Positions 37,117 through 55,403 of a DNA stretch of 64,000 nt are shown here, piece after piece. The notes under the pieces are model-generated. The model had not been told where the DNA came from. It was given only the letters and a program-made list of their open reading frames with translations, and did no database searches. This DNA comes from Catellatospora coxensis (GTDB taxonomy: Bacteria > Actinomycetota > Actinomycetes > Mycobacteriales > Micromonosporaceae). The DNA is taken from the NCBI RefSeq assembly GCF_016862635.1, contig NZ_BONI01000022.1:1-64000 (forward strand), written 5' to 3'. The position numbers and the translations under genes were made by a program. Position 1 is the stretch's first letter. Each line of letters starts with the position of its first letter.

Positions 37117-38556
37117 TCAGCCCGCGGGCATCACCGCCAGCCACCAGTCCCCGGTCAGGTGCTCGGGCTCGACGGTGATGGTGAGCTGGTCCGGATACTG
37201 GGCGCTCAGGCCGCGCACCTTCGCGTCGTCACCGGCGGGGGCGAACTCCGACTGCCACGTCTGCTGCTCGTAGTCCCACCAGGTCTTCACGTCGACGAGC
37301 ACCCCGTTGATCCGCAGCCGCAGCACGCCCGGCGTCTGCGAGCGGGCCATGATGCGCACCCCGCCGCTGCGCCAGTCCAGCGTGGCGGTGCGCGGCCCGT
37401 CGGCGGTGAGCAGCACGCTGGTGCCGGTCGCGTACGCGGGCCGCTCGAGCGGGGCCAGCGCCGCCGGGCGCTCGGGCAGGTCGACCCGGTCGAACCCGAC
37501 GGCTTCGCCGACGAGCAGCGCGAGCACGCCGTCCGCGGGGGCCGGCGAGGCCGGTTCCGGGACCGAGCCCGAGGTTTCCGGGTATACGTACGACACGTCC
37601 AGGTCGAACCGGACGGTGACCGGTTTGCCCACCTCGACGCCCGCGGCGCGCAGGGTCTCCGCGGCGGGCGTGAGCCGGCTCTCGAAGGACAGCCCGTCCG
37701 TCTCGCAGCCCACGGCGCCGAGTTCCCGGCCGCCGACCCACACCTTGATCTCCAACGGCAGCTCGTATCCCGAGTGCGTGCACGCCGGGAAGAAGGCCAG
37801 GTCGAGAGTGGACGGGGTGAACGTCAGCTCGCCGGTCCCGTCGGAGAAGCCGGCCTGCGCACGCTCGGTGATGCGGTAGCCCTGGTGGAAGTCGGGCACG
37901 CCGGCCAGCCCGTCGGTCTCCCCGCCGGGCGCGACGACGTACCCGGCGAGGCCGGCCAGGATCACGGCGAGCGCCGCCGCGGCGGAGGCCAGGCGGCCGC
38001 GGCGCTGCTGCACGATACGACGGCGTACGCCGGCCAGCCGCTCGTTGCCGGCCGGGGCGTCCTCGTCGAGCGCGGGCAGGGCCTGCAGGTCGGGGTCGAG
38101 CCGCAGCCGGGCCAGGCCCTTGGCGGCGTAGCTCTTCACCGAGCCCGGCGAGATGTCGAGTGTCTTGGCGATCTCGGCCTCGGTGAGGTCCTCGAAGTAG
38201 CGCAGCACCAGCACGACCCGCTGCTGCCGGGACAGCCGGCCGAGCGCCCGCCACACCTCGTCGCGCTCGTCGACGGCCGCCTGCGGCGCGGGCATCGCCT
38301 GCTCGGGCAGCGACTCGGCGGGCCGCTCGCCGTTCCACCGGCGTCGCCACCAGGACCGGTACGTGTTGAGCAGCACCTGCCGCACGTACGGCTCCGGGTC
38401 GCCGTGGATGCGCCGCCAGGCCGCCCACGACTTGACCAGCGCGGTCTGCAGCAGGTCCTCGGCCAGCGCGTGGTCGCCGGTGAGCAGGTACGCGATGCGC
38501 AGCAGGTGCCGCGACCGCGCCATGACGAACTCGTCGAACTCCGCCGTGCCGGCCAT
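37117..38556 (-). CDS. SigE-family sigma factor fused to a transmembrane and extracytoplasmic domain (copy 1)
   Basis: 479 residues. Residues ~1-165 are a complete SigE-family ECF sigma factor: region 2 (RSRHLLRIAYLLTGDHALAE, NTYRSWWRRRWNGE) and region 4 (RLSRQQRVVLVLRYFEDLTE, DISPGSVKSYAAKGLARLRL). After a basic linker (GNERLAGVRRRIVQQRRGRL) one membrane helix (~187-207) leads to a ~265-residue outside domain ending TVEPEHLTGDWWLAV, with KTWWDYEQ before it. No separate anti-sigma gene is present. AGGAGG upstream supports ATG 38556. Confidence 0.88.
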   Translation of the reverse strand: MAGTAEFDEFVMARSRHLLRIAYLLTGDHALAEDLLQTALVKSWAAWRRIHGDPEPYVRQVLLNTYRSWWRRRWNGERPAESLPEQAMPAPQAAVDERDEVWRALGRLSRQQRVVLVLRYFEDLTEAEIAKTLDISPGSVKSYAAKGLARLRLDPDLQALPALDEDAPAGNERLAGVRRRIVQQRRGRLASAAAALAVILAGLAGYVVAPGGETDGLAGVPDFHQGYRITERAQAGFSDGTGELTFTPSTLDLAFFPACTHSGYELPLEIKVWVGGRELGAVGCETDGLSFESRLTPAAETLRAAGVEVGKPVTVRFDLDVSYVYPETSGSVPEPASPAPADGVLALLVGEAVGFDRVDLPERPAALAPLERPAYATGTSVLLTADGPRTATLDWRSGGVRIMARSQTPGVLRLRINGVLVDVKTWWDYEQQTWQSEFAPAGDDAKVRGLSAQYPDQLTITVEPEHLTGDWWLAVMPAG

Positions 38557-38651
38557 GCTCCGCAAGCCTCCTGATCGCCGCCGTCAGCAACACGTACCGG
38601 TTGGACGGCGGCGTCGGTGGGGTGGTGTCGCGAGAAAACTTCGCCCGTAGG

Positions 38652-40046
38652 TTACGTGCCGGGCGGCGCCACGGTCAGCCACCAGTCGCCCGTCATGTGC
38701 TCGGGCTCCACGGTGATGACCACGGTCTGCCCGTCGACGAGGGTGAGCCCGAGCCGCTGCGCGTCGGCGGCGTCCAGGAAGCCGGCCCGGTTGCCCTGCT
38801 CGTAGTCCCACCACTCGAAGTTCTCGACCGGGATGCCGTTGACGGAGACGAGCAGGCTGCCGGGGGTCTGCGCGCGGGCCCGCAACGTCAGCGAGCCGCG
38901 CCACACCCCGGAGACGACCTGGGCCTCGGGGCCGTCCAGCCGGGCCCGCCCCGGTGGCACGTCAGGAGCTTCCAGGGGGGCGAGCTTCGCCGGGCGAGGC
39001 GGGAACGGGTACTGCTCGAACGGCACACGCTCGGCGACGGCCACCGCCATCAGCCCGTCGTCGGCAGCCGGCTCGGCGGACAGGGCCACCGTGCCCACGA
39101 CGGTCAGCGTGATCCGGGCGGGCTGCCCGGCGCGCACGTTCCAGGCCGCCGCGGTCCGCGCGCTCATGGCGCGCGCGACGGCGAACTCCAGGCGGGCGCC
39201 ACAGGTGATCGTCGTGACGTAGGTGCCGTTGACGCTCAGCTCCACCTCGGCCGGCGGCGCGCCGGTGGCGCAGTCCCCGAACAGGGTCAGGTCGGTGGTG
39301 CCGGGTGTCCACACCAGTTCCGCCGAGCGCTGGGCGAAAGACGCCTGCACCCGGGCCACGATGCGTTGGCCCCGGTACAGCTCGGGCAGGTCGGCGACGT
39401 CGCCGCGGTCCTGGCCGGGCGCGAGGGCGTACCCGGAGATCCCGGCGATGACGATCAGGCATAGCGCGGCCGCCGCGGACAGCCGGCCGCGCCGGCGCTG
39501 GGTGATCCGGCGGTGTACGGCGACCAGCCGCTCGTTGCCGGTCGGCGCGTCCTCGTCGGCCTGCGGCAGCGCGCGCAGCGTCGGGTCCAGCCGCAGGGTC
39601 GCCAGCCCTCGGGAGGCGTACGCCTTCACCGCGCCCGGCGAGATGTCCATGGTCCGCGCGATCTCCGCTTCGGTGAGGTCCTCGAAGTAGCGCAGCACCA
39701 GCACCACCCGCTGCTGGCGGGGCAGCCGGTCCAGCGCCCGCCACAGCTGGTCGCGCTCGTCGACGGCGTTGTGCTGCGACGGCCCGGCGTGCTCGGGCAG
39801 CGTCTCGGTCGGCCGCTCGCCGTGCCAGCGCCGCCGCCACCACGAGTTGTACGTGTTGACCAGCACCCGCCGCACGTACGGCTCCGGGTCGCCGTGGATG
39901 CGCCGCCACGCCGTCCACGACTTGGCCAGCGCGGTCTGCAGCAGGTCCTCGGCGAGGATGTGATCGCCCGAGAGCAGGTACGCGATACGCAGCAGGTGGC
40001 GCGAGCGCACCGTCACGAACTCGTCGAACGTCGCCGTGTCGGCCAT
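38652..40046 (-). CDS. SigE-family sigma factor fused to a transmembrane and extracytoplasmic domain (copy 2)
   Basis: 464 residues with the same architecture as copy 1. Sigma region 2 is RSRHLLRIAYLLSGDHILAE, region 4 LPRQQRVVLVLRYFEDLTEA and DISPGAVKAYASRGLATLRL. The linker RRITQRRRGRL precedes one membrane helix (~185-205), then an outside domain with two Cys (FGDCATG, ITCGA). The family ending is FEWWDYEQ and TVEPEHMTGDWWLTV. It lies tandemly upstream of copy 1 with a 95-nt gap. Confidence 0.88.
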   Translation of the reverse strand: MADTATFDEFVTVRSRHLLRIAYLLSGDHILAEDLLQTALAKSWTAWRRIHGDPEPYVRRVLVNTYNSWWRRRWHGERPTETLPEHAGPSQHNAVDERDQLWRALDRLPRQQRVVLVLRYFEDLTEAEIARTMDISPGAVKAYASRGLATLRLDPTLRALPQADEDAPTGNERLVAVHRRITQRRRGRLSAAAALCLIVIAGISGYALAPGQDRGDVADLPELYRGQRIVARVQASFAQRSAELVWTPGTTDLTLFGDCATGAPPAEVELSVNGTYVTTITCGARLEFAVARAMSARTAAAWNVRAGQPARITLTVVGTVALSAEPAADDGLMAVAVAERVPFEQYPFPPRPAKLAPLEAPDVPPGRARLDGPEAQVVSGVWRGSLTLRARAQTPGSLLVSVNGIPVENFEWWDYEQGNRAGFLDAADAQRLGLTLVDGQTVVITVEPEHMTGDWWLTVAPPGT

Positions 40047-40140
40047 GCTCCCGGTGCCTCCCTGTCCGCGGTGTCGAGATCCTGTACGACCTGGTCCGCC
40101 GCCGGGGTTGCGCGCGGCCCGCGAGATTTCTCATGCGTGG

Positions 40141-40962
40141 TCAGTTCGGCTGCTGCGGGTAGATCGCCACGTACCAGTCGCCGGTCAGGCGTTCGGGCTC
40201 GACCGTGATGGTGAGCTGCGAGCCGGGCCGCGGCGCGAAGCGGAAGCCGCTGCCGTAGCGTCTCGCGGGGTCCAGGGCGATGCCGACGCCGCCTTCCAGT
40301 GTCATGAACGGTGCGCCGAAGTCCAGATGGGACACCAGGACGCCGTCGACGAGGATGCGCAGGCGGCCGGGTGCCTGCGTGTTCGCCCACACCGTGAGCG
40401 GCCCGGTCCAGGTGGGCGTGGCGGTGCGCGCGCCCCCCGACTCCAGCGTGGCGACCGTGGCCGGGTCGACACCGCTGTGCAGGGTGCGGTCCAGCGGCGT
40501 GCTGGACGGAGCCGCACCGGGCCACGGCAGCTCCGCGTACGTGGCCGGCTCGCCGACCGCCACCGCGATGGTGCCCTGGGGCAGCGGCTCGTCGCCGTGC
40601 CGGCCGAACGTGAGCTCCAGCGTCACGGTCGCCGGGCGGCCCGTGACCAGGTCGAGCGCCACCGGGTCCAGTGTGGTGAAGAAGCCCTCGAAGCCCATTC
40701 GCCCCTCGCCGACGCAGAGGTTCAGGCCGGAGCCCGCCGTTCGCCCGTTCACCCGGACGCTGGTGATACGTGTTGGCGAGCACCCGCCGCACGTACGGCT
40801 CCGGGTCGCCGTGGATGCGCCGCCACGCCGCCCACGACTTGGCCAGCGCGGTCTGCAGCAGGTCCTCGGCCAGCGCGTGATCGCCCGTGAGCAGGTACGC
40901 CACCCGCAGCAGGTGCCGCGACCGCGTCACCACGAACTCGTCGAACGTCGCCGTGTCGGCCA
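40141..40962 (-). pseudogene. SigE-type membrane-tethered sigma factor with internal deletion (copy 3)
   Basis: The start (ATG 40962) encodes region 2 of the family (RSRHLLRVAYLLTGDHALAE to PEPYVRRVLANTY). At ~40765-40770 it joins, out of frame, the middle of the outside domain (ITSVRVNGRTAGSGLN), which then runs to the family ending LTITVEPERLTGDWYVAIYP at 40141. Roughly 200 residues (region 4, membrane helix, start of the outside domain) are missing. In the sigma frame the protein would continue as unrelated sequence. The remnant cannot work as a sigma factor. Confidence 0.8.
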
Positions 40963-41068
40963 TCCCCGTCGCCTCCTGATCGTTCCAGTCAGCAACAGGT
41001 ACCGGTTGACCTGCGGGCCGGGTTGAACCGATGTTCGCGCAGATCCCGGGATGGGTGAGGATAGCGGG

Positions 41069-41461
41069 GTGGAGATGTGGAACAACCCCTCGTGCTCGAA
41101 GTGCGCCGCCGCCCGGGAGACGTTCGAGCTCAACCAGGTGCCGGTGACGCTGCGGCCGTACCTGGACGCGCCGCCGACCGCCGCGGAGCTGGCCGGCGTG
41201 CTGGACCGGCTGGGCGCGCAGCCGTGGGAGATCTGCCGGCTGGGCGAGCCGGCCGCCGCCGACCTGGGCCTGGCCGGCTGGAGCCGGGACGAGGCCGACC
41301 GGCCGCGCTGGATCGCCGCGATGGTCGCGTATCCGCAGCTCATCCAGCGCCCGATCCTGCTGCTCGACGACGGCACCGCGATCGTGGGGCGCACCCCCGA
41401 GGCCCTGGCGCAGGCCCTGAACGCCGAAGCGCCGGCACCCGCCACTCCGCTCATCGACTGA
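41069..41461 (+). CDS. ArsC/Spx-family reductase-like protein
   Basis: 130 residues of the thioredoxin-like ArsC/YffB fold. The active-site region is NPSCSKCAAARE: a CxxC in place of the single catalytic Cys of many ArsC proteins. The C-terminal LIQRPILLLDDGTAIVGRTP carries the conserved Arg-Pro. TGAGGA 8 nt before GTG 41069 and the family start (MEMWNNPSC) favour this codon over ATG 41051. It is followed after 1 nt by an ArsB-like permease, so arsenate or general stress detoxification is plausible. Confidence 0.82.
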   Translation: MEMWNNPSCSKCAAARETFELNQVPVTLRPYLDAPPTAAELAGVLDRLGAQPWEICRLGEPAAADLGLAGWSRDEADRPRWIAAMVAYPQLIQRPILLLDDGTAIVGRTPEALAQALNAEAPAPATPLID

Positions 41462-41462
41462 C

Positions 41463-42686
41463 ATGGCACAGGCGATCGTCCCGGCGGAGGCCGCCGGGAC
41501 CGGGCCGACGCGTGCCCGGACCAGGTTCAGTGGGCTCGACCTGCTCGCGTTCGCGCTGCTCGGCACGGGGCTGCTCGCGGTGGCGACCGGCCTGGTGCCG
41601 CCCGCGGGCGCGCTGGCGACCGGCGGCCGCATCCTGCCCATCCTGATCTTCCTGGGCACGGTGATCGTGCTGGCGGAACTGGCCGCGCGAGCCGAGCTGT
41701 TCGACGTGATCGCCACCCGGCTGACCGGCTGGGCGCGCGGCCGCAACGTCGCGCTGTTCGGGCTGTGCTTCGCCTTCGCCGCGGCGACCACCGCCCTGCT
41801 CAACCTCGACACCACCGCGGTGCTGCTCACCCCGGTCATGCTGGCGACCGCGGCGCGGGCCGGGGTGCCGCCGCTGCCGCTGGCGATGACGACGATCTGG
41901 CTGGCCAACGGGGCGAGCCTGCTGCTGCCGGTGTCGAACCTGACGAACCTGCTGGCCGCGGACCGGATCGGCCTGTCGGTGGGCGGGTTCGCCGGGGCGA
42001 TGGCGCTGCCGCAGGCCGCCGTGCTGGTCGCGGTCGGCGCCTGCCTGTGGGTCTTCTACTGGCGCGGCAACCCGGCCCGCTACCTCCCGCCCGCGCCGGT
42101 GCGGCCCCGCGACCGGCGGCTGCTGCTGGCCGCGGCCGCCACCTGCACGGCCTTCCTCGCGGGCGTGCTGTGGGGCGAGCGGCTGGAGCTCGTCTCCGCG
42201 GTCTGCGCGCTGGCCCTGGTCGCCGCGTACGCCCGCTGGGACCGGGCCGCGCTGGGCTGGAACCTGCTGCCCTGGCGGCTGCTCGTGCTGGTCACCGGCC
42301 TGTTCCTGACCGTCGAGGCGGTCGGGCGGCTCGGCCTGGCCGACCTGATGGCGGCCATGATCGGGGCCGATCCCGGCGCGACGGGGGTGGTGCGGGCCGC
42401 GGTGACCAGCGGGCTGCTCGCCAACGCGGTCAACAACCTGCCCGCGTACGTGGCGGGCGAGGCCGTGGTCGCCGCCGGGCACCGCGACCAGCTGCTCGGC
42501 CTGCTGCTCGGGGCGAACGTCGCGCCGCTGGTCACCGCGTGGGCGTCGCTGGCCACGCTGCTGTGGGCGCAGCGCTGCCAGGCCGCCGGGGTGCGCATCC
42601 GCTGGGGCAGGTTCGCGCTGACGGGGGCGGTCACCGGGGCCGCGGCGCTGGCGGCCGGGACCGTCGCCCTGCTGCTGACACGGTGA
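41463..42686 (+). CDS. ArsB/SLC13-type anion permease
   Basis: 407 residues and about ten to eleven membrane helices of the ArsB/NhaD/CitMHS ion-transporter superfamily. The re-entrant-loop motifs are LNLDTTAVLLTPVM in the first half and LLANAVNNLPAYVAG in the second, with LANGASLLLPVSNLTNLL between. Translational coupling to the ArsC-like gene suggests arsenite efflux, but another anion (citrate, sulphate) cannot be excluded. A perfect terminator follows. Confidence 0.85.
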   Translation: MAQAIVPAEAAGTGPTRARTRFSGLDLLAFALLGTGLLAVATGLVPPAGALATGGRILPILIFLGTVIVLAELAARAELFDVIATRLTGWARGRNVALFGLCFAFAAATTALLNLDTTAVLLTPVMLATAARAGVPPLPLAMTTIWLANGASLLLPVSNLTNLLAADRIGLSVGGFAGAMALPQAAVLVAVGACLWVFYWRGNPARYLPPAPVRPRDRRLLLAAAATCTAFLAGVLWGERLELVSAVCALALVAAYARWDRAALGWNLLPWRLLVLVTGLFLTVEAVGRLGLADLMAAMIGADPGATGVVRAAVTSGLLANAVNNLPAYVAGEAVVAAGHRDQLLGLLLGANVAPLVTAWASLATLLWAQRCQAAGVRIRWGRFALTGAVTGAAALAAGTVALLLTR

Positions 42687-42693
42687 CCCCGGT

Positions 42694-42736
42694 CGGCGGC
42701 AGGGTGGCGGTCGCCGGGACCGCCACCCTGCCGCCG
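42694..42736. terminator. bidirectional terminator
   Basis: A perfect 18-bp stem (CGGCGGCAGGGTGGCGGT and its complement, 42694-42711/42719-42736) with a 7-base loop lies between the converging permease and PEP-mutase-family genes. Confidence 0.7.
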
Positions 42737-42741
42737 GCGAC

Positions 42742-43539
42742 TCAGGCCAGCAGGCGGTTCAGCTCGCCGTAGCTCACTGCCCCGGCCAGCGTGTCGTAGG
42801 TGCCCTTCGCCAGCAGCTCCTCGGCCGCCCGGCGCATCACCGCGTACGCCGCCTCGGCCACCGAGGAGCCGAGGCTCACCCGGGCCACCCCCAGCGCGGC
42901 CAGCTCGGCGACGGTCGGGGAGCCCGGCCCGGCCAGGATGTTCAGCGGTGCGCCCACCCCGGCGGCCAGCTCGGCGATCACGGCCGGGTCGGCCGTGCCG
43001 GGCACGAAGACGCCGTCCGCGCCCGCGGCGACGTATGCCCGCGCCCGGGTGAGCGCGTCCGCGACGTCGCCGCCGCGCAGGAAGGTGTCGACCCGGGCGT
43101 TGATGAACAGCCCCGCCCCGGCGGCGTCGCGGGCGGCGGCGATCCGCCGGGCGGCCTCGTCGACCGGCAGCAGCGGTGCCGGGCCGACCCGGTCGCTGTC
43201 CTCCAGGTTGACCCCGGCCGCGCCGGCCGCGACCACGAGCCGGATCGTCTCGGCGACCCCGGCCGCGTCATCGGCGAACCCGCCCTCGATGTCGGCGGTC
43301 ACCGGCACGGCCACCGCCCCGACGACCCGGGTCACCAGCGCGACCGCGCGGTCGCGGTCCAGTACGCCGCCGTCGGCCGCGCCCAGGCTCCAGGCCACCC
43401 CGGCGCTGGTCGTGGCGACCGCGGCCGAGCCCGCCTGCTCGGCGAGCCGGGCCGTGGCCACGTCCCAGGCGTTGGCGAGCAGGAGCGGGGTGCCCGGCTG
43501 GTGCAGGGCGCGGAAGGCGGCGTACTTGTCGATCGTCAT
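42742..43539 (-). CDS. isocitrate lyase/PEP mutase family protein
   Basis: 265 residues of the PEP mutase/isocitrate lyase superfamily TIM barrel. Motifs are PLLLANAWDVATARLAEQAG, ATTSAGVAWSLG, the metal-binding VTADIEGGFADD, GVNLEDSD and INARVDTFL. The catalytic-Cys KKCGH loop of isocitrate lyase is absent, so a carboxyphosphonoenolpyruvate mutase or oxaloacetate-decarboxylase-like role is more likely. ATG 43539 starts the family N-terminus MTIDKYAAFRALH. Confidence 0.87.
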   Translation of the reverse strand: MTIDKYAAFRALHQPGTPLLLANAWDVATARLAEQAGSAAVATTSAGVAWSLGAADGGVLDRDRAVALVTRVVGAVAVPVTADIEGGFADDAAGVAETIRLVVAAGAAGVNLEDSDRVGPAPLLPVDEAARRIAAARDAAGAGLFINARVDTFLRGGDVADALTRARAYVAAGADGVFVPGTADPAVIAELAAGVGAPLNILAGPGSPTVAELAALGVARVSLGSSVAEAAYAVMRRAAEELLAKGTYDTLAGAVSYGELNRLLA

Positions 43540-43574
43540 GGGCCCAGTCCACCACGGGCCCCGGACGGCGGCTG

Positions 43575-43624
43575 GCGGGAAAACGACATCAGCGTGGCTC
43601 GCGATCATGATGTCGTCTTCTCGC
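43575..43624. repeat. hairpin between divergent genes
   Basis: 17-base arms (43575-43591, 43608-43624; GCGGGAAAACGACATCA) pair with two G-U-type mismatches around a 16-base loop. It lies between the starts of the PEP-mutase-like gene and the ada-alkA gene, so it is not a simple terminator. It may be an operator or a dispersed repeat. Confidence 0.5.
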
Positions 43625-43660
43625 GAGTCGCCCGGCCTCCGCCCTGGCTACGGTGGGGGC

Positions 43661-45025
43661 ATGCACGAGGACTTCGAACGCTGTGTCCGTGCGGTGCACT
43701 CCCGCGACGCCCGCTTCGACGGCTGGTTCTTCACCGCGGTGACCAGTACCCGCATCTACTGCCGTCCGAGCTGCCCGGTGCCGCCACCGCAGGTGCGGCA
43801 CATGACGTTCCTGCCCAGCGCGGCCGCCGCCCAGCAGGCCGGATTCCGGGCCTGCAAGCGCTGCCGCCCCGACGCCAGCCCCGGCTCGCCCCAGTGGAAC
43901 GCCCGCGCCGACCTCGTCGGCCGCGCCGTCCGGCTCATCGCCGACGGGGTCGTCGACCGGGAGGGCGTGCCCGGCCTGGCCGGCCGGCTCGGCTACAGCA
44001 CCCGGCAGGTGCAGCGGCACGTGCAGGCCGAACTCGGCGCGGGGCCGCTCGCGGTGGCCCGCGCGCAGCGCGCCCAGGCGGCCCGCACCCTGATCGAGAC
44101 GAGCACCCTGCCGATGGGCGACATCGCGTTCGCGGCCGGGTTCGGCAGCATCCGCAGCTTCAACGACACGGTCCGCGAGGTGTTCGGCCTGACCCCCGGC
44201 GAGCTGCGGGAACGGGTCAGCCGCGGGGCACGGGCCCAGGTCGTGCCGGGCACCGTCACGGTCCGCCTGCCCTACCGGGCCCCGCTCGCCGCCGCCGAGC
44301 TGTTCGCGCAGCTCGCCGCCGAGGTGCTGCCCGGGGTCGAGCAGTGGCGCGACGGCACGCTGCGGCGCACCCTGCGCCTGCCGCACGGCACCGGCATCGT
44401 CGCGCTGCGCCCCGCCGCCGGGCACGTCGAATGCCGCCTCGCCCTGGCCGACCTGCGCGACCTCGGCAGCGCCGTCAACCGGTGCCGGTGGCTGCTCGAC
44501 CTCGACGCCGACCCGGTCGCCGTGGACGCCGCGCTGTCCGCCGACCCGGTGCTCGCGCCGCTGGTCGTGGCCGTGCCGGGGCGGCGGGTGCCGCGCGCCG
44601 TGGACGGGGTCGAGTTGGCGGTGCGCGCGGTGGTGGGCCCGGCTGCGGCAGCCCGGCTGGCCATGGCGTACGGCGACCCGGTCACCGACCCCGACGGCGC
44701 GCTGACGCGGGTGTTCCCCGACGTGGCCGGCCTGGTCCAGGTCGATCCCGCGGAGCTGGGCGTGGCGGAGCGCGTCGGGCGGGCGTACACCGCGCTCGTC
44801 GGCGCGGTGGCCGGGGGAACGCTCGATCTCGGCATCGCCGCCGACTGGACCGCCGGCCGGCAGCGGCTGCGGGACCTGCCCGGACTCGACGAGTCCACCG
44901 TGGAGCACATCGCCATGCGCGCGCTCGGCGACCCCGACGCCTGGCCCGGCGACGGGCGGCACGGGGAACCGGCCGAACGCTGGCGGCCCTGGCGGGCGTA
45001 CGCCTTCGGACACCTCGCCGGGTGA
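43661..45025 (+). CDS. Ada-AlkA fusion: methyl-sensing activator and 3-methyladenine DNA glycosylase
   Basis: 454 residues. An Ada N-terminal zinc domain with four Cys (C34, C38, C65, C68) can accept methyl groups from DNA phosphotriesters. An AraC-type HTH (~85-185; DIAFAAGFGSIRSFNDTVRE) follows, then an AlkA N-terminal domain and an HhH-GPD glycosylase (LRDLPGLDESTVEHIAMRAL with catalytic Asp in GDPDAWPGD). It both excises alkylated bases and activates the adaptive response. The ATG at 43661 gives the normal Ada start. Confidence 0.92.
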   Translation: MHEDFERCVRAVHSRDARFDGWFFTAVTSTRIYCRPSCPVPPPQVRHMTFLPSAAAAQQAGFRACKRCRPDASPGSPQWNARADLVGRAVRLIADGVVDREGVPGLAGRLGYSTRQVQRHVQAELGAGPLAVARAQRAQAARTLIETSTLPMGDIAFAAGFGSIRSFNDTVREVFGLTPGELRERVSRGARAQVVPGTVTVRLPYRAPLAAAELFAQLAAEVLPGVEQWRDGTLRRTLRLPHGTGIVALRPAAGHVECRLALADLRDLGSAVNRCRWLLDLDADPVAVDAALSADPVLAPLVVAVPGRRVPRAVDGVELAVRAVVGPAAAARLAMAYGDPVTDPDGALTRVFPDVAGLVQVDPAELGVAERVGRAYTALVGAVAGGTLDLGIAADWTAGRQRLRDLPGLDESTVEHIAMRALGDPDAWPGDGRHGEPAERWRPWRAYAFGHLAG

Positions 45026-45072
45026 CGGTCCGGCGGCTTGCCGGGCGGTGCGGCTCGCGTTACCGTGCGCCG

Positions 45073-45426
45073 ATGCGAGAGACGTCGATCAGCCGCGGCA
45101 CCGCCGGGATGCTCAGCGCCGCACTGCTGGCCCTGGTGCTGGCCTACCTCTACGGCGCCGTCGCCTACCTCGTCACCGACGCGGCGTACTTCCCCGAGCA
45201 GTCCCCGCCTGGCTGGTCCTGGCCGGCGGTCTTGGTGACCATGTTCGGGTTCGTGCCCGCCGCGGTCATCCTGCTGTTCGCGTGGCGCGCGTGGCGCTCA
45301 CCGCAGGTGCAGGCCGACGTGTTCACCCGTCGGCTGCTCGCCGTCGCCGGGGTGGCGGCCGCCCTGATGCTGCTGGTGATGGCCACCCCGCCCGGCTGGG
45401 AGCTGTTCGACTGGTACGTCAGCTGA
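45073..45426 (+). CDS. small three-helix membrane protein
   Basis: 117 residues with three predicted helices (GMLSAALLALVLAYLYGAVA, WPAVLVTMFGFVPAAVILLF, LLAVAGVAAALMLLVMATPP). No family recognised. It follows ada-alkA after 47 nt and its end overlaps the convergent DUF4231 gene by 8 nt. Confidence 0.65.
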   Translation: MRETSISRGTAGMLSAALLALVLAYLYGAVAYLVTDAAYFPEQSPPGWSWPAVLVTMFGFVPAAVILLFAWRAWRSPQVQADVFTRRLLAVAGVAAALMLLVMATPPGWELFDWYVS

Positions 45427-45898
45427 CCGGCTGCTGCTCCGGCTCCGAGCGGCGCACCGTGCGCTGCTCGGCCCACTGCGACGTCTCCGCGGCGACCAGG
45501 CTCTCGACGTTCTCGACGAGCAGCGTCTCTGCGCGCTCGCCGTCGTAGGGGACCGCGCCCGCGCTCCACACCACGGCCTCACGCTGCATCGCGACCAGCG
45601 TCGCGCTGGCCCGGACCCAGCTCTCGCCCGGCCGGATCAACTGCCGCAGCCCCGCCAGCACGGCGACCGCCGCACCGAGCACCGCGGTCAGCGCGGTCGA
45701 CGCGCCGAGCGCGGCCGCGGCGGGGATGCTCGCGGCCACCACGACGGTCACCCCCTCCAGGGTGTAGTTCGTGATCCGCTGGCGGCTCACCTGCTTCGAG
45801 TACCACAGCAGGCGCTCCTGCACGCTCATCGGCAGCTGTGCGCCGCCGGGTGAGGTGAGCCGCTGCCACCAGATCTGCTGCGCCGTGCCGTCCGCCAT
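45419..45898 (-). CDS. DUF4231/SLATT-like membrane protein
   Basis: 159 residues. An N-terminal amphipathic stretch (SVQERLLWYSKQVSRQRITN) precedes a hydrophobic hairpin (VTVVVAASIPAAAALGASTA, LTAVLGAAVAVLAGLRQLI). The C-terminal part is helical and ends with AETSQWAEQRTV. This is the DUF4231 layout, related to SLATT proteins that often serve as membrane effectors in nucleotide-signalling defence systems. No nucleotide cyclase-like partner is visible nearby, so a defence role is only a possibility. Confidence 0.72.
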   Translation of the reverse strand: MADGTAQQIWWQRLTSPGGAQLPMSVQERLLWYSKQVSRQRITNYTLEGVTVVVAASIPAAAALGASTALTAVLGAAVAVLAGLRQLIRPGESWVRASATLVAMQREAVVWSAGAVPYDGERAETLLVENVESLVAAETSQWAEQRTVRRSEPEQQPVS

Positions 45899-45984
45899 CG
45901 CGTCCCTCCCGGAAGTCCCGATGATGGTGGCACGCAACGCATCCGGGGGCCAGCCGCGATGGAACTACCTGACACACCCGATGG

Positions 45985-47439
45985 TCACAGGGGCGGCCCG
46001 ACCGACTGCACCTCGGCGAACCAGTCCCCGGCCAGACGGTCCGGCACGACGGTGACGGTGACCTTGGTGCCGCGCGCGATGCCGAGGTCCGGCTCCCCGT
46101 ACGCCGGGTGATGCAGGCTCGCGTCGTCCTGTTCGTAGTCCCAGAAGTCCAGCGTGCCCACGGGCCTGCCGTCGACGTGAATGTGCAGCCGTCCCGGGGT
46201 CTGAGCCCGGGCGTGCACCGCGAGCGGCCCGAGCCACACCAGCTCGACACTCGCGGCATCGGGGTGGAGCAGCACGGTGTTGGACCGCTGCTCGTAGAAC
46301 GGCTCCAGGGCGCGCGGCTCGGGCGGCGCGGCGGGCAGCGGATAGCCGTCGAAGGGCACGGGTACGCCGATGCCGACCAGCAGCGTGCCCGAGGTCGGCA
46401 TGGGGGCACGCGCGCAGTCCTGCTGGACCATCTCGCCACGCCTGGTCTGGCGGTTCAGGCATACGCCGCTGACCCTGGTCGACACGACCGCCGGGCGGCC
46501 GGCCACGGTACGCAGGTCGAACCACTCCACCCGCAGATCCTCCCGCCGGGCGTCGTCGCACGAGGCGGAACGGTAGTGCTCGCCGTTCACGATCACCGAG
46601 ACGCTCACCGAGGAGGTCGGCAAGTCGTGGAAGCACTCGACGAAGATGTCCAGGTCCTGGCCGGACTCCGGAGTCCAGGTCACGGTCACGCTCTCGTCCC
46701 GGGTCAGCCCGCCCGCCGTCGCGGCGAGCACCCGGCGGCCGTCGAGGAAGCGCGGCCCCGGCTGCTGCGAGGTGGCGGGGTCGGGCAGGGAGTGGCGGCG
46801 CAGGTGCGGCGCGACGGCGTACCCGGCGATGGCCGCCAGGACCACGACGCACGCCGCGGCGACCGCCGCGATCCGGTTGCGACGGCGCTGCGCGATCCTG
46901 CTGTGCACGGCGGCCACGCGCTCGTTGCCGGCCGGGGCGTCCTCGGCCTCGGGGCGCGGCAGTTCCCGCAGGCTGGGGTCCAGGCGCAGCCGGGCCAGGC
47001 CCTTCGACGCGTGGCTCTTCACCGCGCCCGGGGAGATGTGCAGGAGCTGCGCGATGTCGGCCTCGCTGAGATCCTCGAAGTAGCGCAGCACCAGCACCGT
47101 GCGCTGCTGGCGGGACAGCCGCGACAGCGCCCGCCACACCTGGTCGCGCTCGTCCACGGCCGCCTGCGGGGCGGACCCGGCGCGCTCGGGCAGCAGGTCG
47201 GTGGGGCGCTCGCCGTTCCAGCGCCGCCGCCACCAGGAGTTGTACGTGTTCAGCAGCACCTGCCGCACGTACGGCTCCGGGTTGCCGTCCAGCCGCCGCC
47301 ACGCCGACCAGGACCGGGCCAGCGCGGTCTGCAGCAGGTCCTCGGCCAGCCCGTGGTCCCCGGTGAGCAGGTGCGCGACGCGCAGCAGCTGCCGCGACCG
47401 CGCCGTCACGAACTCGTCGAATTCCGCCGTCTCGGCCAT
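45985..47439 (-). CDS. SigE-family sigma factor fused to a transmembrane and extracytoplasmic domain (copy 4)
   Basis: 484 residues. Sigma region 2 is RSRQLLRVAHLLTGDHGLAE, region 4 RLSRQQRTVLVLRYFEDLSE and HISPGAVKSHASKGLARLRL. A basic linker (HSRIAQRRRNRIAAV) precedes one membrane helix (~187-207). The outside domain has four Cys (VECFHD, SASCDD, VCLNRQ, DCARAP) that may form disulphides, and ends LDFWDYEQ and VTVVPDRLAGDWFAEV. It is separated from copies 1-3 by ~5 kb. No anti-sigma gene lies beside it. Confidence 0.88.
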   Translation of the reverse strand: MAETAEFDEFVTARSRQLLRVAHLLTGDHGLAEDLLQTALARSWSAWRRLDGNPEPYVRQVLLNTYNSWWRRRWNGERPTDLLPERAGSAPQAAVDERDQVWRALSRLSRQQRTVLVLRYFEDLSEADIAQLLHISPGAVKSHASKGLARLRLDPSLRELPRPEAEDAPAGNERVAAVHSRIAQRRRNRIAAVAAACVVVLAAIAGYAVAPHLRRHSLPDPATSQQPGPRFLDGRRVLAATAGGLTRDESVTVTWTPESGQDLDIFVECFHDLPTSSVSVSVIVNGEHYRSASCDDARREDLRVEWFDLRTVAGRPAVVSTRVSGVCLNRQTRRGEMVQQDCARAPMPTSGTLLVGIGVPVPFDGYPLPAAPPEPRALEPFYEQRSNTVLLHPDAASVELVWLGPLAVHARAQTPGRLHIHVDGRPVGTLDFWDYEQDDASLHHPAYGEPDLGIARGTKVTVTVVPDRLAGDWFAEVQSVGPPL

Positions 47440-47513
47440 CCCCGCTCCCGTCGCCGTCGTCAGGAACCTCTACCGGCTGGACCGGGGGACCGGTTGCCCC
47501 GACTCGGAACTGG

Positions 47514-54201: not shown

Positions 54202-54711
54202 ATGCCGGACGACTCCGACTTCCGCGAGTACGTGACCGGGCGGCTCGACAAGCTGCGCCGGACCGCGTACCTGCTGTGCGGGGACTGGCATGCCGCGGAC
54301 GACGTCACGTCGACCGCGATCATGAAACTGATGCGGCGCTGGCCGCGCATCCGCGAGCTGGAGAACATCGACTCGTACGCCCGCCAGACGTTGCTGCGCA
54401 CCTGGCTGGACGAGCGCCGCCGGCCGTGGCGGCGGGAGTGGGCGACCGCGGTCCTGCCCGTGCGGGCCGTCACCGCCGCCGACCGGGTGGTGGACGAGCG
54501 CCTCGCCATCCTGGGGCACCTCGCCGCGCTGCCCGCCCGGCGCCGGGCGGTGATCGTGCTGCGCTTCTACGAGGACCTCTCCGTCGAGGACACCGCCGAG
54601 GTGCTGGGCTGCAGCACGGGCACGGTCAAGAGCCAGACCGCGCGGGCGCTGGACACGCTTCGCGCGGCCCTGGTCCCGGCACCCGACGACGCCGAGGAGG
54701 CGACCCGATGA
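54202..54711 (+). CDS. SigE-family ECF sigma factor (unfused)
   Basis: 169 residues. Region 2 is FREYVTGRLDKLRRTAYLLC, then WHAADDVTSTAIMKLMRRWP. Region 4 is LPARRRAVIVLRFYEDLSVE with LGCSTGTVKSQTARALDTLR. It has the normal free-standing SigE length, unlike the fused relatives at 37-47 kb. The stop overlaps the ATG of the downstream membrane protein, a probable anti-sigma partner. Confidence 0.9.
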   Translation: MPDDSDFREYVTGRLDKLRRTAYLLCGDWHAADDVTSTAIMKLMRRWPRIRELENIDSYARQTLLRTWLDERRRPWRREWATAVLPVRAVTAADRVVDERLAILGHLAALPARRRAVIVLRFYEDLSVEDTAEVLGCSTGTVKSQTARALDTLRAALVPAPDDAEEATR

Positions 54712-55403
54712 ACCTGCAGGAGATGCTGAAAGCAGCCGTGGCCGATCCGCCACCACCGGACATCGACCTCGACGCGCTGGCACGGCGCGAACGCCACAGG
54801 CGCCACGTGGTCCGCTGGGCGTCGTTCGGCGGTGGCACGGCGCTGGTGCTGGCGGTCGCGGTCGCCGCAGTGCCGCTGCTGGGCAGCCGGGCCGGCCTGC
54901 CAACGCCCGGCATCGGCCCGGAACTGGTCGTGCCCACCGTGCAGAGCACGCCGCGACTGCGTGCCTCCGAGACTCCGCAGCAGGCCGCGGTGGCCGCCCA
55001 CCTCACCACGGTGCTGCAATCGCTCGGGCCGGATCTCGGGGTCGGGCCGGAGGTGTCGTTCGTCGTCGAGCAGGGCGAATGGGGTGCAGCGCCGGACGGC
55101 CACTGGTACGCGGCCCGATGGAATTTCGACGGCGTGCAGTTGGCGGTCATCGTGCGGCGGGCGATGATTCCGCTGGAGGATGCCTGCGCCAAGAACGGCG
55201 CAGGCCTGTCCTGCCGGCGTATCGAGGAGCGCGACGGCTCGGTGAGCTACTTCGCGGAGGACGTCGACGGCGGCACGCGGCAGGCGGAGAACTACCGGCC
55301 GGACAACGTCGCGCTGATGGTCACCGCCACCGGCCCGGCCGTCTTCAACGAAGAGACGCTCCTGACGGTGACCCGGCTGGACGGCTGGTCGCTCACCGGT
55401 TGA
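54708..55403 (+). CDS. membrane protein co-encoded with SigE-type sigma factor
   Basis: 231 residues. A short cytoplasmic N-terminus (~1-40, LDALARRERHRRHVVRW) precedes one membrane helix (SFGGGTALVLAVAVAAVPLL) and a ~165-residue extracytoplasmic domain with two Cys (DACAKNG, LSCRRIE). ATGA overlap with the sigma gene implies a fixed ratio. It probably tethers or inhibits the sigma factor and corresponds topologically to the C-terminal part of the fused proteins. Confidence 0.75.
   Translation: MNLQEMLKAAVADPPPPDIDLDALARRERHRRHVVRWASFGGGTALVLAVAVAAVPLLGSRAGLPTPGIGPELVVPTVQSTPRLRASETPQQAAVAAHLTTVLQSLGPDLGVGPEVSFVVEQGEWGAAPDGHWYAARWNFDGVQLAVIVRRAMIPLEDACAKNGAGLSCRRIEERDGSVSYFAEDVDGGTRQAENYRPDNVALMVTATGPAVFNEETLLTVTRLDGWSLTG

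Follow-up and report, generated by a model that had tools for sequence, protein, structure and literature searches.

Several extracytoplasmic function (ECF) sigma factors are known to be continuous with a membrane anchor. ECF48, ECF52 and ECF53 are membrane-fused actinobacterial ECF sigma factors with a zinc-finger extension, a likely anti-sigma domain (PMC8999054, PMC5826349). ECF52, the group of SCO4117 of Streptomyces coelicolor, also has a carbohydrate-binding module (CBM), with a proline-rich stretch ahead of it; proteolytic release has been proposed for ECF52, and autoregulation has been suggested for SCO4117 (PMC5826349, PMC8999054). IutY of Pseudomonas putida, which takes part in cell-surface signalling of this Gram-negative bacterium together with the receptor IutA, is an ECF243 sigma/anti-sigma fusion activated by Prc and RseP cleavage (PMC5411451). 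Here we describe a family of SigE-family ECF sigma factors that continue into a membrane helix and an ectodomain, encoded in the soil actinobacterium Catellatospora coxensis (genome of 9.35 Mb). The stretch analysed, bases 1–64000 of contig NZ_BONI01000022.1 (C22), is referred to as the window.

Three intact open reading frames (ORFs) of this family lie on the minus strand: W1 (37117–38553, 478 amino acids), W2 (38652–40046, 464 amino acids) and W3 (45985–47439, 484 amino acids). Each runs without an intervening stop from a SigE-family ECF sigma domain through an Arg-rich linker and one membrane helix into an ectodomain. TIGR02983 (SigE-fam_strep) covers residues 1–153/154 with 191.8, 186.9 and 186.8 bits for the three proteins, against a curated cut-off of 141.55 bits. 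The linker comprises 37 residues in all three, is basic, and flanks the helix with an Arg-rich part on the side of the sigma domain. By hydropathy, a single hydrophobic segment of 19–20 residues is placed at about residues 191–211, followed by ectodomains of 269, 254 and 273 residues. On the DNA, the sigma domain, linker, helix and ectodomain of W1 occupy 38095–38553, 37984–38094, 37927–37983 and 37120–37926. Those of W2 are found at 39585–40046, 39474–39584, 39417–39473 and 38655–39416, and those of W3 at 46978–47439, 46867–46977, 46807–46866 and 45988–46806. The ATG at 38553 is a likelier start of W1 than the listed TTG at 38565, because the orthologues begin MAGTAEFDEFV.

A fourth fused gene survives as a deletion relic (40150–40963, minus strand). 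It retains the ATG at 40963, the first 66–78 or so sigma residues and a promoter-like site, and an ectodomain remnant continues in another frame at 40150–40770. By reading, three genus mates carry intact counterparts whose upstream DNA is similar. The three fusions and the relic are real, as an initial annotation made from the sequence alone had proposed. That annotation also gave a shared C-terminal motif preceded by WDYEQ. WDYEQ is found in all three intact proteins; the strict L of the quoted motif does not hold, since W2 has M and the common form is TVxPxx(L/M)xGDW.

We compared W1–W3 with the described systems. Like ECF52, ECF53 and ECF48, they have a C-terminal extension predicted by hydropathy to cross the membrane. 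Unlike them, W1–W3 contain neither the Hx3Cx2C motif nor a zinc-finger Pfam match, and their sigma domain belongs to the SigE family. Unlike ECF52, no Pfam CBM is detected in W1–W3 or in 19 related ectodomains, while the predicted beta-sandwich fold is still compatible with sugar binding. With the zinc motif and the Pfam CBM both lacking, membership of ECF52, ECF48 or ECF53 was rejected. The cell-surface-signalling anti-sigma domain of IutY-type fusions is of the FecR type. W1–W3 resemble IutY in joining a cytosolic sigma domain and an extracytoplasmic part in one membrane-crossing chain (PMC5411451); unlike IutY, they have no Pfam match outside the sigma domain, and their ectodomain is modelled as two beta-sandwiches. 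Literature searches on membrane-bound or fused sigma factors and on Catellatospora sigma factors gave no account of this fused family among the matches listed. The family may already have an ECF group number, and we set it apart from ECF48, ECF52 and ECF53 by their published descriptions. The suggestion that the family is undescribed stands for the ectodomain in Pfam and fails for the general design: a SigE-type sigma factor fused to a Pfam-less ectodomain is probably new, while membrane-fused ECF sigma factors as such are known.

The fused proteins have an unfused sibling, a pair of separate genes. At C22:73.7–75.3 kb, outside the window and 26 kb from the fused genes, the same ectodomain is encoded by a partner gene whose ATG overlaps the TGA of a SigE-family sigma gene (an NTGA overlap), and such pairs also occur in other genera. 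The initial view that anchor and candidate sensor are covalently attached is borne out by this arrangement, which makes the one-chain proteins a Rosetta-stone fusion. TIGR02983 sigma factors with an overlapping gene for a membrane partner are what we call the parent module, and W1–W3 share with it the sigma family, the Arg-rich juxtamembrane segment and the single helix. They differ from it in being one protein instead of two; the two-gene form has a longer connector, with an extra N-terminal segment in the partner.

A fused family copy is present in 11/11 Catellatospora genomes, three of which are assembled in 4 contigs or fewer, and 10 of the 11 additionally have the unfused pair. Among named relatives, the ectodomain was seen at five loci of Catellatospora species and at one locus of Rhizocola hellebori. 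In the taxonomic family, an ectodomain profile matched at least 57/354 genomes and at least 14/44 genera; six candidates were scored per genome, so these counts are lower bounds. One match was found in another family of the same order, and in a phylum sample of 396 genomes the ectodomain was matched in the window's own genome only. Altogether, 112 distinct ectodomain places were recorded, of which 47 are fused, 53 stand beside a separate sigma frame and 12 are without sigma, each class including a few fragments. The NTGA overlap is seen in 46/53 unfused places, fragments included, and in 43/45 of those used in the trees. At three loci (L085, L084 and L086, in genomes G171–G173), a separate ectodomain ORF of 349–351 amino acids is located at a distance of about 2 kb from a fused gene, and no sigma match was found to adjoin it.

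Trees were built from 87 of the 112 places (42 fused, 45 unfused). Excluded were the 12 places at which no sigma was matched and 13 short ones (ectodomain below 200 positions or sigma below 120 amino acids). In the tree of sigma plus ectodomain, one branch splits the two forms, with a Shimodaira–Hasegawa approximate likelihood ratio (SH-aLRT) support of 94. The sigma-only tree needs 1 fused/unfused change (SH-aLRT 90), and the ectodomain-only tree 2 changes, of which 1 is forced. On the simplest reading, the family would have fused once and then multiplied in Catellatospora. We infer that the direction was fusion and not fission because the unfused pair is more widely spread.

The parent module is widespread in the class, a point that the initial annotation overlooked together with the recurrent fusion to other ectodomains in the same genome. 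TIGR02983 has 52 matches in the own genome at E up to 1e-20. We scored the next gene of each by script, a pair being defined by a downstream partner with an early membrane helix, and obtained 24 NTGA pairs, 12 pairs with other offsets, 7 fusions and 9 with neither. The scoring is generous: among 53 other window ORFs under the same test, 3 NTGA and 4 other pairs passed (7/53 unrelated ORFs) and 46 did not. Two of the 36 pairs are doubtful, C61:51486, where the next ORF is transporter-like, and C29:58578, where the partner appears by eye to be of the zinc type. Class-wide, TIGR02983 matches at E up to 1e-40 occur in 27/40 genomes; in a sample of 29 non-own loci drawn from these matches, 19 are NTGA pairs and 4 are pairs of the other kind, 6 show neither form, and 0 are fused.

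Fusion has occurred repeatedly in the own genome. On a tree of 51 of the 52 sigma domains (one was too short), the fused label needs 5 changes, 4 of them forced, with a bootstrap range of 4–5. Four further fusions, on contigs C12, C28, C58 and C85, carry different ectodomains. In the C58 fusion (L180:996-2063, plus strand), a LytR_C domain follows the membrane helix, hinting at an envelope signal; no Pfam match was found in the ectodomains of the C12, C28 and C85 fusions. The C85 type spans the query without a stop in 11/11 genus genomes and the C12 type in 8/11. For the C28 type, the whole query lies in one frame in 5/11, and 3 more genomes show it as two segments with open frames of equal length.

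We next consider what fusion changes in the connector. In all seven fused proteins of the own genome, the stretch between sigma match and membrane helix measures 22–31 amino acids by the helix finder used for partners and 25–34 by a second rule. The sigma tail plus partner N-terminus of unfused pairs measures 41–119 amino acids (32/36 pairs, helix start at 30–50). The Arg-rich juxtamembrane segment is retained in 7/7 fused proteins. The N-terminal helix of the partners has the consensus LRxxLxxxA (16 partners, one row typed by hand). Judged by length and by reading of the linkers, the fused proteins apparently do without this helix.

CnrY, a class II anti-sigma factor, is a separate protein. 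Its helix 1 binds sigma4 and its helix 2 binds sigma2, class II domains being short, whereas the class I anti-sigma domain (ASDI) has at least 50 residues by a curation limit and a mean of 101 (PMC7406223). The fused linker of 37 residues is below the 50-residue limit, unlike ASDI. Like class II domains of the CnrY type, which have under about 50 residues, the unfused partners have about 30–50 residues before the helix in 32/36 pairs. The comparison with CnrY is an analogy and not a sequence relation, and the linker segment has a predicted local distance difference test score (pLDDT) below 50 in our model. We tentatively propose, at odds clearly below even, that an undescribed minimal partner controls SigE-family sigma factors across Actinomycetes, consisting of a short cytosolic segment in two parts, the LRxxLxxxA helix and an Arg-rich helix next to the membrane, and of freely exchangeable ectodomains. 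Recurrent fusions would then discard helix 1 and keep helix 2, since a covalent tether makes docking on the sigma factor unnecessary, and the fused proteins would be evidence from nature that anchoring itself is inhibitory.

The two ends of the fused proteins evolve differently. The ratio of nonsynonymous to synonymous substitution rates (dN/dS) in 11 orthologue pairs, W1 being compared with 7 genus orthologues, is 0.07–0.31 for the sigma domain and 0.25–0.68 for the ectodomain. The sigma domain is under purifying selection, and the ectodomain is looser. Two Cys are invariant in 19/19 ectodomains. The search of the C-terminal domain proposed by the initial annotation was run, and outside the sigma domain W1–W3 have no Pfam family above cut-off. 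The 19 related ectodomains also have no Pfam family, with three weak single-member matches (best E 0.022), and two full unfused partners and four partner N-termini gave no Pfam match above cut-off.

The W2 ectodomain modelled alone with AlphaFold2 forms two tandem beta-sandwich domains (pLDDT 89.2, predicted template modelling score 0.76); the full-length W2 model has a mean pLDDT of 70.7. Among the best 50 Foldseek rows, all TM-scores are below 0.3, and these rows include BcsB, beta-galactosidases and the anti-sigma-factor-domain proteins 6qe7 and 6qdi. Matches to T-cell receptors in another search, with E-values of 0.2 or worse, were taken as noise. No Pfam, PDB-sequence or clear fold identity was obtained for the ectodomain, and a sugar or envelope ligand is our guess.

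A shared promoter motif upstream of the genes, which the initial annotation had raised, is present in the family, though W1 has no strict form of it. CAACC-N16/17-xGTA occurs upstream of 77/90 family genes, 29/40 fused and 48/50 unfused, and begins 34–83 nucleotides (nt), mostly 55–66, before the start. For inclusion in this set of 90 upstream regions, the ectodomain match had to cover at least 150 positions; at three fused places no start codon was obtained. Shuffled upstream regions contain the motif in 11/4500 cases. On both strands of the whole window, it appears three times, always on the minus strand: at W2 (40085–40110, CAACC-N17-CGTAC, 64 nt upstream of the start), at W3 (47471–47496, CAACC-N17-GGTA, 57 nt upstream) and at the relic (41000–41025, CAACC-N17-GGTAC). 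Among the own SigE-type genes with an upstream region, 4/51 have the motif, and three of these belong to the family described here. The motif is common to fused and unfused siblings, which suggests that promoter specificity has not changed and that a working sigma domain regulates its own gene.

Genome-wide, the strict motif has 14 sites, versus 3 for a reversed control, and each of the 11 genus genomes has 2–8. Some of the genomic sites appear to fall inside coding frames. Several recur in the genus, and the commonest, with small variants, is found in 9/11 genomes; we rejected it as a promoter, since in six aligned loci, by our reading, it sits where conserved coding sequence of the opposite strand ends. 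A lipoprotein gene that reads as alpha/beta hydrolase-like has another strict site (L137, C70:40055-40080, minus strand) 65 nt upstream. This gene is a possible regulon member.

The neighbourhood of the fused genes is mixed. The interval 37117–47439 assigned to the family by the initial annotation does hold its genes, and it also includes unrelated genes at about 41051–45937, between the relic and W3. A DUF4231 gene (45419–45937, minus strand) starts 47 nt past the end of W3, in the same orientation, and is possibly co-transcribed with it. Divergently upstream of W3, a frame of the Phd/YefM-like antitoxin type can be read at about 47.55–47.84 kb on the plus strand. The window also contains an unfused pair on the plus strand, with an NTGA overlap. 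Its SigE-family sigma gene (54211–54711) has its match at 54211–54672, the stop being computed from a 12-residue tail, and does not group with the fused family in the tree of sigma domains. The partner (54708–55403, coordinates computed from offset and length) is a predicted single-pass membrane protein of 231 amino acids with its helix from about residue 34.

Based on these observations, we favor, with a probability of roughly 0.55, the view that the fused protein is a membrane-tethered sigma factor, a one-chain version of the two-gene module that is freed by proteolysis on an outside signal. The sigma domain would remain in the cytoplasm, with its own C-terminal extension fixing it to the membrane; a single crossing of the chain would place the two tandem beta-sandwich domains outside. 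Tethering would prevent the sigma domain from forming a productive holoenzyme. On an extracellular or envelope signal perceived by the ectodomain, a regulated proteolytic cut close to the membrane would free a SigE-sized sigma factor. This factor may transcribe its own gene, from CAACC-N16/17-GGTA, and possibly a small number of others.

Several results weigh against this proposal. In the full-length model, contact between linker and sigma domain is not predicted, the linker pLDDT being below 50, and for the apparent loss of the partner's N-terminal helix, a crude helix-pattern score did not separate the two sets (3 of 3 in 19/32 unfused and 3/7 fused). The ectodomain has no family and weak fold matches at best, so that no ligand is identified. 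Matches to the site-2-protease-type family PF02163 are present in the genome; they lend weak support because 14/14 control genomes also matched. The strict motif is absent from 11/40 fused genes, W1 included, and its matches identify no regulon in the own genome or the 11 genus genomes. Finally, the family trees are quick, unrooted trees in which several long branches meet.

A serious competitor, if an improbable one, is that the fused protein acts at the membrane without cleavage. Proteins of the ToxR/CadC type are membrane-bound one-component regulators. Here, the ectodomain would alter the oligomeric state or conformation, and the tethered sigma domain would bring RNA polymerase to DNA close by. 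In favour of this, the genus has kept the fused state throughout, the sequence does not require cleavage, and so few strict sites per genome would suit a local target. However, both RNA polymerase and the promoter would probably have to lie within reach of a short tether at the same time, and the fused membrane sigma factors in the descriptions consulted are cleaved (IutY) or proposed to be so (ECF52).

We give distinctly less credit to the idea that the membrane part is a stabiliser or co-activator of the sigma domain instead of an inhibitor, so that the fusion is constitutive or positively acting. The missing Pfam matches outside the sigma domain, in fused proteins and tested partners, would agree with it, and the anti-sigma factor RskA is called a dual activator-inhibitor in the title of one paper (PMC7509140). 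Against this, the ectodomain evolves faster than the sigma domain, as a sensor might. It is very unlikely that the fused genes are functionless duplicates in decay: the relic in the window and the fragments in other genomes would fit such decay, but the sigma dN/dS of 0.07–0.31, the motif at 29/40 fused genes and the fused copy in every one of the 11 genus genomes speak against it. That a sequencing or assembly error or a frameshift joined two genes, which the existence of unfused siblings might suggest and which the initial annotation named as grounds for refutation, is in practice refuted, because 11/11 separate genus genomes carry fused copies that have the shortened connector in common, not a one-base change.

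We return to the tethered sigma factor released by proteolysis and to what it would mean. SigE-family sigma factors are abundant in Actinomycetes, yet they are seldom named in the literature searched. The fusions point to a likely regulator for them, the overlapping single-pass membrane gene. If this is true, there would be a candidate receptor for dozens of orphan sigma factors per genome, and one-gene sensors with a candidate promoter sequence would be available in the fused forms, so that their regulation is directly testable in a reporter strain.

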